Shown here one piece after another: positions 39,394 to 45,929 of a stretch of 64,000 bases of DNA. How positions within the stretch are numbered: the first letter of the stretch is position 1; each line of letters begins with the position of its first letter. This DNA is from Haloplanus ruber (GTDB lineage Archaea > Halobacteriota > Halobacteria > Halobacteriales > Haloferacaceae): the NCBI RefSeq assembly GCF_024494725.1, contig NZ_JANHDK010000001.1, positions 496,001 through 560,000 on the forward strand. The letters are read 5' to 3'. The position numbers and the translations under genes were made by a program. The notes beneath the pieces were generated by a model that saw only the letters and a list, made by a program, of their open reading frames with translations, did not search any database and was not told the DNA's origin.

Positions 39394-40539
39394 ATGGATA
39401 TCTCCGATATTGCCACTCCCGAATACATCGAAGTCGACGCGGGCGAACGCCTAGGGAAGGTCCGTTCGATCTTCGAGCGCGAGAACCCCAAGGGACTCAT
39501 CGTCACTCGGGACGGCGAGTACGCCGGCGTCATCGGCGAACGCGACTTGGTCCGCTCCCGGATCGAGGACGACACCAAAGCCGACGTGCTGATGAAGTCC
39601 GCGCCGCAGGTCGACCGCACGGAGGACGTCCGGGAGGTCGCCCGGGTGCTCGTCGAGGGGGGTACCAAGGTGGCGCCCGTCTACGAGGGCGAGAAGCTTT
39701 GGGGAATCATCACGGCCGACGCCATTCTGGAGGCGGTCCTCGACAGCCTCGACGCGCTGACCGTCGAGCAGATTCAGACCGACGACGTGATGACCATCGG
39801 CGAGAAGGCCCACGTCGGCCAAGCAATCAACCGACTGCGCGAACACGGCATCTCGCGCCTGCCCGTCGTCGACGACGAGAACTCGCTCGCCGGCGTGTTG
39901 ACCACGCACGACATCGTCGATTTCGTCGTTCGCGACGCCGACCGGCAGGGTCGCGGTGACCGCCGCGGTGACCTCGACCGGATGCTCGATCTGCCCGTCT
40001 ACGACCTGATGACCAGTCCGGTGCTGACGACGACCGCCGACGAAACCGTCGAAGACGCCGTGCGGACGATGCTCGACAACGACGTGTCCGGCCTGGTGGT
40101 CACGCCGACCGAGGCGGACGACGAGACCGTGGCGGGCGTGCTCACCAAGACCGACGTGCTTCGTGCGCTCACCTTCACCGAGGAGGGACAGATGGACGTC
40201 CAGATCACCAACGTCGCTCTGCTCGACACCATCACCCGCGAGGAGATTGTCGAGGGCATCACCGACGTGGCGGACAAGTACCAGAAGATGCAGGTCCACC
40301 ACGCGCACGTGCGCTTCCACGAGCACAAGGAGAAACTCCGCGGGACGCCGCTGATTCAGTGTCAGATCCGCCTGCGGACCAATCACGGGCAGATCGCCGG
40401 CTCCGGCGAGGGGTACGGCGCCGACCACGCCTTCCACGTCGCCGCCGACACGCTCGAGCGCAACGTCCTCGAACTCAAGGGACTCCGGGCCGACGAGCAG
40501 TACCGCGGCCAGTTGCTCCGGAAACTCGGCGAGCTATAG
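39394..40539 (+). CDS. Four-CBS-domain protein fused to an HPF/ribosome-hibernation-like C-terminal domain
   Basis: A 381-residue soluble protein. Four CBS repeats fill about 1-275; examples are ATPEYIEVDAGERLGKVRSI, APQVDRTEDVREVARVLVEG, TIGEKAHVGQAINRLREHGI and TADETVEDAVRTMLDNDVSG. They are two Bateman modules that normally sense adenine nucleotides. The last 105 residues (about 277-381; VADKYQKMQVHHAHVRFHEH, then IQCQIRLRTNHGQIAGSGEG) resemble the beta-alpha fold of hibernation-promoting factor. This suggests an energy-sensing factor acting at the ribosome. A TATA-like AACTTTC lies near 39360. Convergent with radB, overlapping by 6 bp. Confidence 0.85.
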   Translation: MDISDIATPEYIEVDAGERLGKVRSIFERENPKGLIVTRDGEYAGVIGERDLVRSRIEDDTKADVLMKSAPQVDRTEDVREVARVLVEGGTKVAPVYEGEKLWGIITADAILEAVLDSLDALTVEQIQTDDVMTIGEKAHVGQAINRLREHGISRLPVVDDENSLAGVLTTHDIVDFVVRDADRQGRGDRRGDLDRMLDLPVYDLMTSPVLTTTADETVEDAVRTMLDNDVSGLVVTPTEADDETVAGVLTKTDVLRALTFTEEGQMDVQITNVALLDTITREEIVEGITDVADKYQKMQVHHAHVRFHEHKEKLRGTPLIQCQIRLRTNHGQIAGSGEGYGADHAFHVAADTLERNVLELKGLRADEQYRGQLLRKLGEL

Positions 40540-41253
40540 GCTTTCCTCGCCCGCGGCCAGTCCGTCGCCGGTGATGCGGAAGGTTGCGGTTTCGCCGGCG
40601 GGCTTCGACCGGTGTTTCTCCAGCGTCGCCCGACGGTTGCCGCCGCGGAACCGATCTAGGCGGACGACCGTCCCCGTCCAGTGGTTGAGCGTGTGCCCGC
40701 CGAGCGCCCGCGTTCGGTCGGCCTCGGGGTCGGTGAACACCTGATTGGTGACGACGACAGCGAGGTTGTGTTTTCTCGCGAGCGACAGCAGGTGGGTCAC
40801 CTGCCGGCCCACTCGCCGGAGCGTCTCGCCCTTGTCGTCGTCGCGGCGCTCGAGCCGGTAAAATCCCGTTGCGCTGTCGAGGACGACCAACTCCGCGCGC
40901 GGTGCGAAGTCGGCGGCGTCGCGGACGGCTTCCTCCTGTTCGGCGAAGTCGTGGACCTCGGTGACGACGATGCGGGAGGTGATCGCCTCCAGGTCCGCGT
41001 CGTCCTCGGCCACGCCCGCCGCGAGCTGTCGGAACCGCTCGACCGACAGTCCCTCGGTGTCGATGTACACCGCGGTCCCGCCGGTGGCAGCGGCCTGGAC
41101 GGCCGCCGACAGCGAGAGGTTCGTCTTGCCGGCGGCCGGCGGCCCGTACAACTGGGTGACGGTGCCGCGCTCGAAGCCGCCGCCCAGGAGGTCATCGAGC
41201 GGGGGGCAGCCGGTCGGAACTGGCGCTGGCGCTGACTCGGACACACTCCCCAT
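40534..41253 (-). CDS. radB: DNA repair and recombination protein RadB
   Basis: A 239-residue RecA-fold ATPase without the N-terminal domain of RadA. Walker A is GPPAAGKT (37-44) and Walker B is ELVVLDSATG (about 120-129). The L1/L2 region is short, as in RadB, which assists RadA in strand exchange and repair in euryarchaea. The start is either ATG 41253 or GTG 41244; a TATA box GGTTTATGC (41267-41275 on this strand) is at leaderless distance from the GTG, so the true protein may be three residues shorter. Divergent from the RNase-H-like gene. Confidence 0.92.
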   Translation of the reverse strand: MGSVSESAPAPVPTGCPPLDDLLGGGFERGTVTQLYGPPAAGKTNLSLSAAVQAAATGGTAVYIDTEGLSVERFRQLAAGVAEDDADLEAITSRIVVTEVHDFAEQEEAVRDAADFAPRAELVVLDSATGFYRLERRDDDKGETLRRVGRQVTHLLSLARKHNLAVVVTNQVFTDPEADRTRALGGHTLNHWTGTVVRLDRFRGGNRRATLEKHRSKPAGETATFRITGDGLAAGEESL

Positions 41254-41338
41254 GGGTCGTTCCGTGGCATAAACCCTCGACACCGCGGCGCGGGTGGGAC
41301 CGCGACACGTTTTACCACCGCGGCGTCGAAGGTCGGTT

Positions 41339-42067
41339 GTGATCGTCGTCGCCACCGCGGACTTCGAACTGTACCACGAGGTCGTCGACCTCCTCCGGGA
41401 GCGCGGCGTGGCGTTCACCACGGTCGAACCCGACGCCGACCTCCCCGACGCGGCGTCGGTCGTCGTCACGGCGCCGGACGACACGGTCGACCTCGGCGAC
41501 GACGCCGAGCACGTCACCGCGACGGCCGAGGAGGCCAGACGCGCCGTCGACGAGGCACTCGCGCTCTTGCGCGGCGGCGAGGGCCGAACGGTCGTCGGGG
41601 TCGATCCCGGCACCCGTCCGGGCATCGCCGTCCTCGCCGGCGAGACGGTCGTCGCCGCCTTCCACGTCCCCCTCTCGGACGCCGTGAGCGTGATCCGCCG
41701 GGAGGTCGCGGACGCGGTCGATCCGCTGGTCCGGATCGGCGACGGCGCTCGCATCCAAGGCGCCCGACTCGTCGACGACCTCGACGAGGTGACGGTGGAA
41801 CTCGTCGACGAGACGGGGACGACCCCCTACCTCGGGACCGGCGCTCGGGGGATGGGCGACGTCCTCGCCGCGGTCAACATCGCTCGCTTGGAGGGCGAAC
41901 GGGTCGACTCCCGAGAGATCGAACCCACGGCCGGCGAACTCCAGCGGATCAAGGATCGCTCCCGCCGCATCTCGACCGACGACCGGACCATCGACGACGC
42001 GCTCGCCCGCCGGGTCGCCGTCGGCGACTTGACCGTCGAGGAGGCGCTGGACGAACACCGCGGCTAG
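41339..42067 (+). CDS. Uncharacterised protein with RNase H/RuvC-like acidic motifs, beside radB
   Basis: A 242-residue protein. The first 75 residues form a small Rossmann-like domain (MIVVATADFELYHEVVDLLR). A second domain starts with RTVVGVDPGTRPGIAVLAGE (83-102), whose D89-P-G-T matches the first catalytic strand of RuvC-type RNase H folds. Further acidic residues fall in plausible places: E154/D157 in VTVELVDETG and D174 in RGMGDVLAAVNIA. The C-terminal 50 residues are charged helices (ELQRIKDRSRRISTDDRTID) that could bind nucleic acid. GTG start at 41339, 27 nt after TATA-like GTTTTACC (41309-41316). Divergent from radB, suggesting a repair role. Nuclease activity is inferred only. Confidence 0.72.
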   Translation: MIVVATADFELYHEVVDLLRERGVAFTTVEPDADLPDAASVVVTAPDDTVDLGDDAEHVTATAEEARRAVDEALALLRGGEGRTVVGVDPGTRPGIAVLAGETVVAAFHVPLSDAVSVIRREVADAVDPLVRIGDGARIQGARLVDDLDEVTVELVDETGTTPYLGTGARGMGDVLAAVNIARLEGERVDSREIEPTAGELQRIKDRSRRISTDDRTIDDALARRVAVGDLTVEEALDEHRG

Positions 42068-42234: not shown

Positions 42235-43515
42235 TCACCGCTCCCGGATCGCCGCTTCGGCCCGCCGCAACACGGTGCGGACCGGGAGATCGGCCGTGCC
42301 GGCGACCGCGAGCGCGTCGTCGTACTCGGCGCTCACGTCGTAGACGGTCCCGTCGGCGTCGGTCGCCACCTTCACACCCACGTCGTATGCGTCGCCGTCC
42401 ACCTGCAGGGTCGCCGTCTCGAACGTCCGGTCGGCGACCCAGCGGTGCCCGGCGCTCCCCTCACGGACGCCGAGCGTCCCCGTCTCCTCGGCGAGGCGGC
42501 GGGCCACCCGCTCGGCGTCCGCCGGGTCGACGACCACCTTGACCAGGTGGCCCGGTCGCGACTTCTTCATCGTCGCCGGCAGGATCGACACATCGAGGGC
42601 ACCCACCTCGGTGAGTGTCTCCTGAAGCCCGCCGAGAACCTCCGGCGTGGCGTCGTCGAGGCTGGTTTCGAGGACGGTGATCGACTCCTGGCGGAGGCCG
42701 CCGCCCCCATCGCCCACGAGTGCCCGGAGGACGTTCGGGTGGTCGGGCACGTCTGCATCCCCAGCACCGTACCCCAGAGAGTCGACGGCGAGGTCGGGGA
42801 GTCGCTCAACGCCGTCGGCGAGTTCCGTGAGAATCGCCGCCCCGGTCGGCGTGAGGAGTTCGCGGTCGACGGGACCACCGCGAATCGTCCAGTCGGCGTC
42901 GGCGACGAGTTCCGTCACCGCGGGCACCGGAACCGGGTAGACGCCGTGGCTCATGGAGACGGTCCCGCCGCCGACCGCGACGGGCGTCGTCACGATTCGC
43001 TCGACGCCGAGGTCGGCGACGAGGAGGCAGACACCCACCACGTCCGCGATGGCGTCGTCGGTCCCCACCTCGTGGAAGTGGGTGTTGTCGAGGTCGGTGC
43101 CGTGGACCGCTGCCTCCGCCTCGCCGAGGCGGCGAAAGACCGCGAGAGCGTCGCGCTCGACGGCGGACGGGAGGTGCATCGCCTCGACGACAGTGACGAC
43201 TTCGGGATACGTGCGAGCGGGACCGGCCCCCTCGGCGTGTGTGTGTGCGTGGCTGTGGTCGTGGCTGTGAGCGTCGTGGTCGTGGTCGTGATCAGTCCGA
43301 TCCTCTTGCTCCGGGCTACCGTTCCCCTCGTCGAGGAACACGTCGACAGCCGTCGCGTCGATGCCGGCTTTCGTCGTCGACCCCACGCGATAGCGGATGC
43401 CGAGTTCCGCCTCGACGGGGTCGAGCGCGGCCGGATCGGCGCCGGCGGCGATCAAGGCTCCGAGGAGCATGTCGCCGCTCGCCCCCATACGGCCGTCGAA
43501 CGCGAGCGTGTGCAT
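42235..43515 (-). CDS. larC: Nickel-pincer cofactor biosynthesis protein LarC (nickel insertion)
   Basis: A 426-residue CTP-dependent nickel insertase of the LarC/DUF111 family: N-terminal FDGRMGASGDMLLGALIAAG (7-26), HFHEVGTDDAIADVVG (about 140-155) and C-terminal LETSLDDATPEVLGG with LPATMKKSRPGHLVKV. In Lactobacillus LarC is made by ribosomal frameshifting; here it is one continuous frame. A histidine-rich insert (residues 76-93, HDHDHDAHSHDHSHAHTH) separates two lobes and probably stores or binds nickel. The LarA-like gene at 2.9 kb is the likely client; larB and larE are not in this window. The start at 43515 removes an unmatched N-terminal extension. Confidence 0.93.
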   Translation of the reverse strand: MHTLAFDGRMGASGDMLLGALIAAGADPAALDPVEAELGIRYRVGSTTKAGIDATAVDVFLDEGNGSPEQEDRTDHDHDHDAHSHDHSHAHTHAEGAGPARTYPEVVTVVEAMHLPSAVERDALAVFRRLGEAEAAVHGTDLDNTHFHEVGTDDAIADVVGVCLLVADLGVERIVTTPVAVGGGTVSMSHGVYPVPVPAVTELVADADWTIRGGPVDRELLTPTGAAILTELADGVERLPDLAVDSLGYGAGDADVPDHPNVLRALVGDGGGGLRQESITVLETSLDDATPEVLGGLQETLTEVGALDVSILPATMKKSRPGHLVKVVVDPADAERVARRLAEETGTLGVREGSAGHRWVADRTFETATLQVDGDAYDVGVKVATDADGTVYDVSAEYDDALAVAGTADLPVRTVLRRAEAAIRER

Positions 43516-43650
43516 ATCCGCTCGCTCGGGTTCGACGGTCAAACGGCTTGCGACCGTTCCGGGATCGGCAAGGGTTTGTACCGTCACGACGTATGCTACA
43601 ATATGTCACAGTCTGCCGTGAAATCGGCGCCCGAGACCCCGGGTAACAAC

Positions 43651-43700: not shown

Positions 43701-45929
43701 ATGAACGAAGTGCAACTCGAAGTGGCGAAAGCGTACCCGAACGACTCGGGACGCGGTATCGCCAGACTGGACCCCGATACGTTGCTTCACCTGAAGCTGT
43801 CGCCGGGTGATATCATCGAAATCGAAGGGGCCGAGACAACGGCCGCGAAGGTGTGGCGTGCCGACAGACAGGACTGGAACACGGACACCGTCCGGATCGA
43901 CGGGTTCACGCGCCAGAACGCCGATGTGGGGATCGGCGAACGCGTCACCATCCGCAAGGCCGAGGCGACGAAAGCCGAGAAACTCGTCCTCGCGCCGCCG
44001 GAGGAGGCGAGCGTCCAGTTCGGCTCGGACGCCGCCGGGATGGTCAAACGGCAGATTCTCAAGCGACCGGTGGTCGAACGCGACATCGTCCCCGTCATGT
44101 CGAGTACGAACCACCCATTCATGCGGTCGCCAGGGCAGGCCATCCCGCTGATCGCCGTCGAAACCGAGCCGGACGGCGTCTGTTTGGTCACCGAGGACAC
44201 CGAGGTCGAACTCCGCGAGGAGCCGATTTCGGGGTTCGAGAAGACCGGCGGCGGCATCACGTACGAGGACATCGGCGGCCTGCAAAGCGAGATCCAGCGG
44301 GTCCGGGAGATGGTCGAACTCCCGATGAAACACCCGCAGATCTTCAAGAAGTTGGGGATCGAACCCCCGCAGGGTGTCCTTCTGCACGGCCCGCCGGGGA
44401 CGGGGAAGACCCTCCTCGCCAAGGCCGTCGCCAACGAGACGTCCGCGAGTTTCTTCTCCATCGCGGGCCCGGAGATCATCTCGAAATACTACGGTGAGTC
44501 CGAACAGCAGTTGCGCGAAATCTTCGAGGACGCCAAAGACGAGTCGCCGTCGATCATCTTCATCGACGAACTCGACTCCATCGCGCCGAAACGTGAGGAC
44601 GTGACCGGCGAGGTCGAACGCCGCGTGGTGGCGCAGTTGCTGACGATGATGGACGGACTGGAGACGCGAGGCCAGGTCATCGTCATCGCGGCGACCAACC
44701 GCGTCGACAGCGTCGACCCCGCGCTCCGTCGCCCCGGCCGGTTCGACCGCGAGATCGAGATCGGCGTCCCCGACGAAGCGGGGCGCAAGGAGATCCTCCA
44801 GATCCACACCCGCGGGATGCCGCTCTCGGACGACGTGAGCCTCGATCACCTCGCCGACGAGACCCACGGCTTCGTCGGTGCCGACATCGAGAGCCTCACA
44901 AAGGAAGCCGCGATGAAGGCGCTGCGGCGCTACCTCCCCGAGATTGACTTAGACGAGGAGGACATTCCGCCGAGCCTCATCGACCGCATGATCGTCAAGG
45001 ACGACGACTTCGGCGGCGCACTCAACGAAGTCGAACCGTCTGCGATGCGGGAGGTGCTGGTCGAACTCCCGAAGATCACGTGGGACGACGTGGGAGGGTT
45101 AGAGGAGCCCAAACAGAACGTCAAGGAGGCTGTCGAGTGGCCGCTCTCCTCGCCCGAGAAGTTCGACCGCATGGGGATCGAACCCCCGAAGGGCGTCCTC
45201 CTGTACGGGCCACCGGGGACGGGCAAGACGCTGATGGCGAAGGCCGTCGCCAACGAGACCAACGCCAACTTCATCAGCGTGCGCGGCCCGCAACTCCTCT
45301 CGAAGTGGGTCGGGGAAAGCGAGAAGGCGATCCGGCAGACCTTCCGGAAGGCCCGGCAGGTGGCGCCGACGGTCATCTTCTTCGACGAACTCGACTCGCT
45401 GGCGCCCTCCCGGGGCAACGAGGTCGGCAACAACGTCTCCGAGCGTGTCGTCAACCAACTCCTGACGGAACTCGACGGGTTAGAGGAGATGGGCAACGTG
45501 ATGGTCATCGGCGCGACCAACCGACCCGATATGATCGACCCCGCGCTCCTCCGCTCGGGGCGGTTCGACCGCCTCGTGTTCATCGGCGAACCTGAACAGG
45601 AGGGTCGTGAGCAGATCCTGAAGATCCACACCCAGGACTCGCCGCTCGCCCCCGACGTGAGCCTGCGCGAAGTCGCGGAGATCACCGACGGCTACGTCGG
45701 CTCGGACCTGGAGAGTATCGCCCGCGAGGCGGCGATGGTCGCGCTCCGCGAGGACGACGAAGCCGAGGACGTGGACATGCGCCACTTCCGACAGGCAATG
45801 GAGAACGTCCGCCCGACGATCACCGACGAGATCATGGACTACTACGAGCGCATCGAAGAGCAGTTCAAAGGCGGCGGCGGGGAGAGCTTCGCCGAGCGCG
45901 GAAGCGGCGGTCGCATCGGCTTCCAGTAA
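43701..45929 (+). CDS. cdc48: Cdc48/VAT-type AAA+ ATPase
   Basis: A 742-residue double-AAA unfoldase. The N domain (1-180) has double-psi barrel and SH3-like parts: [23 protein letters not shown] domain D1 has Walker A GPPGTGKT (230-237) and Walker [13 protein letters not shown]; domain D2 has a second GPPGTGKT and [12 protein letters not shown]. Second-region-of-homology arginines are in [12 protein letters not shown] and [11 protein letters not shown]. It unfolds substrates for the proteasome and acts in protein quality control. The C-terminus ends GGRIGFQ, ending with a short flexible tail. Haloarchaea usually carry several Cdc48 paralogues. Confidence 0.96.

Follow-up and report, generated by a model that had tools for sequence, protein, structure and literature searches.

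A conserved archaeal protein with a predicted YqgF/Tex/DUF460-class RNase-H fold encoded head-to-head with radB

The radB-H242 locus

The window, which is the whole stretch of 64,000 nucleotides analyzed here, is haloarchaeal and lies on contig C1 of the 3.28 Mb Haloplanus ruber assembly. It includes radB and a divergently oriented gene for a 242-residue protein, here called H242, together with three further genes whose order is conserved (Table 1). Among named relatives, Haloplanus sp. LUM.53 comes closest here (83% identity). RadB acts as the recombination mediator of archaea, and knowledge of the nucleases that operate around it is only partial (Mre11-Rad50, Hjc, and Hef). The NCBIfam score makes the identity of the radB gene secure. 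An earlier note on this DNA had described a 242-residue protein that shares an 85-bp divergent promoter with radB. The length of the protein is upheld, and so are the 85-bp gap and the divergent orientation of the two genes. Translation of H242 starts at a GTG codon, which occurs at the same place in 57 of 58 aligned haloarchaeal homologs.

Table 1. Features of the radB-H242 locus (positions in the window)
Feature	Position	Strand	Basis or remark
CBS-domain protein	39394..40539	+	Pfam CBS x4; outer neighbor of radB; order kept in most named loci
radB, recombination mediator	40534..41253	-	NCBIfam NF006861 (RadB), 410 bits against cutoff of 278
Divergent intergenic region radB/H242, 85 bp	41254..41338	.	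TTTTA element at 41310-41314
H242, predicted YqgF/Tex/DUF460-class RNase-H-fold protein, 242 aa, GTG start	41339..42067	+	Homologs, profiles, predicted fold
N-terminal alpha/beta domain, residues 1-78	41339..41572	+	Conserved; no identified family
RNase-H-like core, residues 84-182 (b1 b2 b3 a1 b4 a2 b5 a3)	41588..41884	+	AlphaFold domain model, Foldseek
D89, predicted first-strand catalytic Asp	41603..41605	+	103/103
E154-L-V-D157-E158, end of strand 5	41798..41812	+	E154 and E158 103/103; D157 101/103; E158 aligns with Glu of RuvX DER motif
D174 on helix alpha3, predicted third catalytic carboxylate	41858..41860	+	103/103
C-terminal helical tail, residues 184-242	41888..42064	+	Conserved IEPT.GE and LAR.VA.GELT.EEA
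larC-like gene, flanking H242 opposite radB	42235..43587	-	Pfam Ni_insertion, NCBIfam LarC; conserved order
Cdc48-type double AAA ATPase, member of conserved block	43701..45929	+	Sequence; conserved order; H. volcanii Cdc48a is HVO_2380 (PMC10470531)

The GTG start of H242 is also supported by a block of A/T nucleotides of the leaderless type at positions -29 to -25, which is 80-95% A/T across 59 haloarchaeal loci compared with about 30% in the surrounding sequence. In the window, this block corresponds to the TTTTA element 25-29 nt before the start codon. Its placement resembles that in a leaderless archaeal promoter, and its conservation suggests that H242 probably has its own promoter element within the gap. 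A second conserved A/T position occurs at -11/-10 before the H242 start (window positions 41328-41329; 71-93% A/T in haloarchaeal loci) and is possibly a proximal promoter element. On the radB side (window positions 41244-41273), a TTTATG element precedes the listed ATG (41253) by only 15-20 nt and an in-frame GTG at codon 4 (41244) by 24-29 nt. The latter spacing matches the leaderless spacing of H242, and translation of radB may begin at codon 4.

Domains, conserved residues, and predicted fold of H242

Conservation was assessed in an alignment of 103 homologs that includes distant families (down to 33-44% identity). The earlier note had singled out D89, E154, D157, and D174 as possible active-site residues. 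All four withstand this comparison, with only two Asn substitutions at D157, and the equally invariant E158 was absent from its list. The DPG motif that begins with D89 is likewise invariant, but the Thr that the note had included in this motif (DPGT) is not conserved. Further invariant residues are G95, G134, G136, R138, T161, P163, G166, and N180, in addition to P90 and G91 of the DPG motif. Position 135, directly after beta4, varies among D (82 sequences), H (13), N (6), S (1), and R (1), so it is not expected to be catalytic. D135 was considered as a beta4 catalytic acid and rejected because it is unconserved outside the haloarchaea. The tail contains the invariant residues P196, E200, R209, L222, A223, V226, A227, and A236. 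Its description as a charged helical tail holds for three conserved, charged helices that are predicted here, but the net charge over residues 198-242 is about -2.

The AlphaFold model of whole H242 has a pLDDT of 88 and a pTM of 0.61. In this model, the N-terminal domain has the secondary structure E2-4, H9-21, E26-28, E41-44, E57-60, and H63-77. Profile similarity between this domain and the region ahead of the DUF460 domain in COG2433 proteins is only fragmentary, and a comparison of the domain by itself did not support the idea that it is a copy of that region (P 0.014, 19 columns). Foldseek searches with the whole protein return Argonaute and terminase matches that are blurred by the uncertain packing of the domains. 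Residues 80-242 were folded alone for this reason, giving a model with a pLDDT of 89 and a pTM of 0.79 in which a βββαβαβα arrangement precedes the tail helices. The best PDB match of this predicted domain is the RNA-binding protein Tex (2oce; E 1.6e-4, prob 1.00, TM-score by query length 0.51), to which it is 22% identical over 125 columns. Weaker E values are obtained for terminase nucleases and for the chloroplast resolvase MOC1, and RuvC-like phage resolvases are among the top matches in a search against viral models. The core thus has the b1b2b3-a1-b4-a2-b5-a3 topology of the RNase-H-like superfamily in the predicted structure, with an invariant Asp on beta1 and an invariant acid on the C-terminal core helix. 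Since the TM-scores are modest, these matches are taken to indicate a superfamily and a subclass, not close kinship.

Profile-profile comparisons with hhalign, controlled with 30 column-shuffled versions of the alignment, indicate which branch of the superfamily is closest. The H242 domain scores 34.5 against RuvX (shuffled maximum 19.8), 33.7 against Tex (21.9), and 45.0 against DUF460 (30.8), whereas its score of 25.0 against RuvC (22.3) comes from only 15 aligned columns. The catalytic motifs are in register in these alignments: H242 VELVDETGTTPY falls on RuvX VKLHDERLSTVE and on Tex VSEAGASVYS, IGDGA falls on Tex IGNGT, and AAVNIAR falls on AVSIAR. According to a 2014 survey of the superfamily, the clade that holds RuvC also contains DUF460, RuvX, and Tex (PMC3985635). 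In the published description of YqgF (PMC9601230), the beta4 Glu of RuvC is absent, beta5 instead has a Glu at its end, and alpha3 carries a single acid. H242 has the layout of YqgF/RuvX (PF03652), with a variable position 135 and invariant E158 and D174. The RuvC pattern (PF02075) of an Asp on beta1, a Glu on beta4, and two acids on alpha3 is not found because the beta4 acid is unconserved. Judged by this site layout and by the profile and fold matches, H242 is a YqgF/Tex/DUF460-class RNase-H-fold protein rather than a RuvC, and E158 is likely its catalytic Glu. The earlier note had called it an RNase-H/RuvC-like partner of RadB; the first half of this description agrees with the structure prediction, but the RuvC assignment is rejected on the absent beta4 acid and the weak RuvC profile match. 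Neither outcome that the note had named as speaking against its idea, acidic residues that vary among homologs or a fold unlike RNase H, was observed.

Family models place the protein less directly. PF03652 has no match in the genome at E<=1 and is absent from the Pfam scan of H242, and the Tex model PF16921 also has no match in the genome. H242 scores 16.2 bits against PF04312 (DUF460), below the cutoff of 28, and most family members have a similarly weak sub-threshold match (best E 3e-4). The multidomain architecture of Tex is not seen in H242, which is 242 aa long and has no further Pfam domains. PHROG 1770, annotated as "Holliday junction resolvase", matches weakly in 38 of 41 members; weak matches to PHROG 159 also occur. 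Searches of PDB sequences with the single protein, a haloarchaeal profile, and a wide profile give nothing significant, and NCBIfam and PADLOC give no real match to H242.

Phylogenetic spread and gene neighborhood

Within the order, an H242 homolog is encoded by 249 of 293 genomes and by 223 of the 255 that are near complete, while radB occurs in 289 and in all 255, respectively. Full-length relatives are present in seven further families of a phylum-wide sample (f18, f23, f25, f28, f31, f40, and f44), with E values of 1e-57 to 1e-67 and 33-44% identity. This distribution argues that the gene is not a chance reading frame. No relative that would suggest a phage origin was detected among viral contigs. 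COG2433/DUF460 proteins are separate and nearly universal (115 of 120 genomes of the phylum sample), and a true COG2433 protein is encoded at position 76663 of contig C2 in the same genome as H242. Sequence comparison therefore indicates that H242 is a member of an uncharacterized archaeal family distinct from COG2433.

A separate observation, made in connection with that resident COG2433 gene (76663-77061), is that COG2433 proteins, judged by eye, have an apparent second RNase-H-like stretch at the N terminus besides DUF460, with the motifs FGVDIVKGS, SVDN, and DEAKACAYLA.

Some complete genomes retain radB and have no H242 gene, and some genera that keep radB have lost it cleanly. No H242 remnant was detected at nine radB loci from genomes of this kind. 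One of these losses is especially clean: the CBS, radB, larC, and cdc48 genes are still in order and the gap between radB and larC has closed. H242 is thus dispensable on evolutionary time scales, and RadB does not need it.

The expectation that H242 stays next to radB is satisfied in 54 of 61 named loci, where the two genes are nearly always head-to-head and mostly 70-260 bp apart by alignment starts; some of the seven remaining loci are on short contigs. Of 20 distant loci, 10 again have radB as the divergent neighbor, and these belong to families f18, f23, f25, and f31. The larC and cdc48 genes are found nearby in 35 and 32 of the 61 named loci, which implies an ancestral block and means that part of the link to radB could be inertia. 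radB is nevertheless the most persistent neighbor and remains at loci where larC and cdc48 are unseen. In families f28, f40, and f44, the homolog is not beside radB. At all three f28 loci examined, a FEN1-family gene in the same orientation is situated roughly 0.3 kb upstream of it, and the recurrent neighbor at seven f40 and f44 loci is DUF373 (PF04123), a domain of unknown function.

Possible roles and comparison with known systems

The reading that we prefer, and to which we give an even chance as a whole, is that H242 would be an active metal-dependent nuclease tied to RadB recombination. Its N-terminal alpha/beta domain and helical tail would flank a catalytic domain of the YqgF/Tex/DUF460 class, in which D89 (beta1), E158 (end of beta5), and D174 (alpha3) could hold a divalent metal, perhaps aided by E154 or by the substrate, and allow hydrolysis of a phosphodiester bond in a structured nucleic acid. 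The persistence of H242 head-to-head with radB suggests that it may work with RadB/RadA recombination or be co-regulated with it. Its most likely task would be to cut or clear a structured intermediate, either branched DNA or an RNA-containing species, before or after strand exchange. We infer the catalysis, metal use, substrate, and RadB partnership, and a role on DNA must be worded with the same caution because the nearest characterized YqgF protein is an RNase. In favor of this reading we count the invariant D89, E154, E158, and D174, the RNase-H topology and the structural matches, the hhalign scores, the PHROG 1770 matches, the published YqgF site layout with its mutants, and the radB and FEN1 neighbors. 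Against it we count the RNase and RNA-binding relatives, the losses in which radB is kept, the inertia of the gene block, and the three families in which the gene is away from radB. A narrower version, in which H242 would be a nuclease dedicated to work with RadB and a new archaeal recombination or replication-fork enzyme, with a YqgF-type active site and acting on branched or RNA-containing recombination intermediates separately from Hjc and Hef, is offered tentatively and is the less probable of the two.

The main rival, clearly less probable than the preferred reading, is that H242 resembles bacterial YqgF in being an RNA nuclease, used for processing rRNA or mRNA or for turning over RNA in general. 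Its adjacency to radB would then reflect shared regulation or an inherited block and no shared pathway. The active site is of the YqgF type, and Deinococcus radiodurans DrYqgF cleaves RNA and not junctions; in RNase assays the D22A mutation impairs the protein, and E106A and D122A block it (PMC9601230). The best structural match, Tex, binds RNA, larC and cdc48 also occupy the neighboring block, and the genome carries Hjc with neither RuvX nor Tex detected by Pfam. Such a role fits less well with the retention of radB as a neighbor when larC and cdc48 are lost, and at the f28 loci examined the neighboring FEN1 is again a DNA enzyme.

We consider it unlikely that H242 is instead a catalytically weak or inactive nucleic-acid-binding protein, comparable to Tex, that regulates RadB/RadA or transcription. 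YqgF sites have been described as incomplete for two metals (PMC9601230), H242 has only the three YqgF-type carboxylates plus E154, and the closest fold match is known for RNA binding. However, none of the putative catalytic carboxylates varies, even between distant homologs, and pure binding would not need such constancy. The RuvC-type Holliday junction resolvase first proposed is very improbable: the RNase-H fold, the structural matches to MOC1 and phage resolvases, and the weak PHROG matches are outweighed by the variable position 135, a single identified acid on alpha3, a short RuvC profile alignment that barely exceeds its shuffled control, and the Hjc already present in the genome.

No experimental work on the H242 family was found in the open-access literature, and within that literature the earlier suggestion of a protein not yet described is borne out. 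H242 extends the archaeal side of the YqgF/Tex/DUF460 branch of the RNase-H superfamily, for which few substrates are known. The processing of DNA or RNA in archaea may thus involve a component that has been overlooked.

Among known systems, the YqgF-like domain of Tex/YhgF (PF16921; 2oce) shares the DPG motif and has SEAGASVY in register with VDETGTTPY of H242, which differs in having no HTH, HhH, or S1 domains, another N-terminal domain, a length of 242 aa, and a sequence below PF16921 detection. RuvX/YqgF (PF03652) has the same fold and three-carboxylate layout, with DER(L/T)ST on H242 DETGTT, whereas H242 is archaeal, has an extra N-terminal domain and a conserved tail, and is missed by the Pfam model. 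DUF460/COG2433 (PF04312), a clade D family (PMC3985635), resembles H242 in being archaeal and in its sub-threshold Pfam and hhalign matches, although COG2433 proteins are mostly 600-700 aa long. RuvC shares the superfamily fold and the DPG motif on beta1 but has the beta4 Glu that H242 does not. Gene order suggests that the Haloferax volcanii ortholog is HVO_2382: Haloferax loci read radB, H242, larC, cdc48, and HVO_2383 is RadB (PMC7776575) and HVO_2380 is Cdc48a (PMC10470531). In the papers searched, HVO_2382 appears only as an uncharacterized protein of interest in an mBio 2023 synteny analysis that reports no function for it (PMC10470531). A conserved nuclease-fold gene head-to-head with radB in this genetically accessible species makes a concrete test possible.
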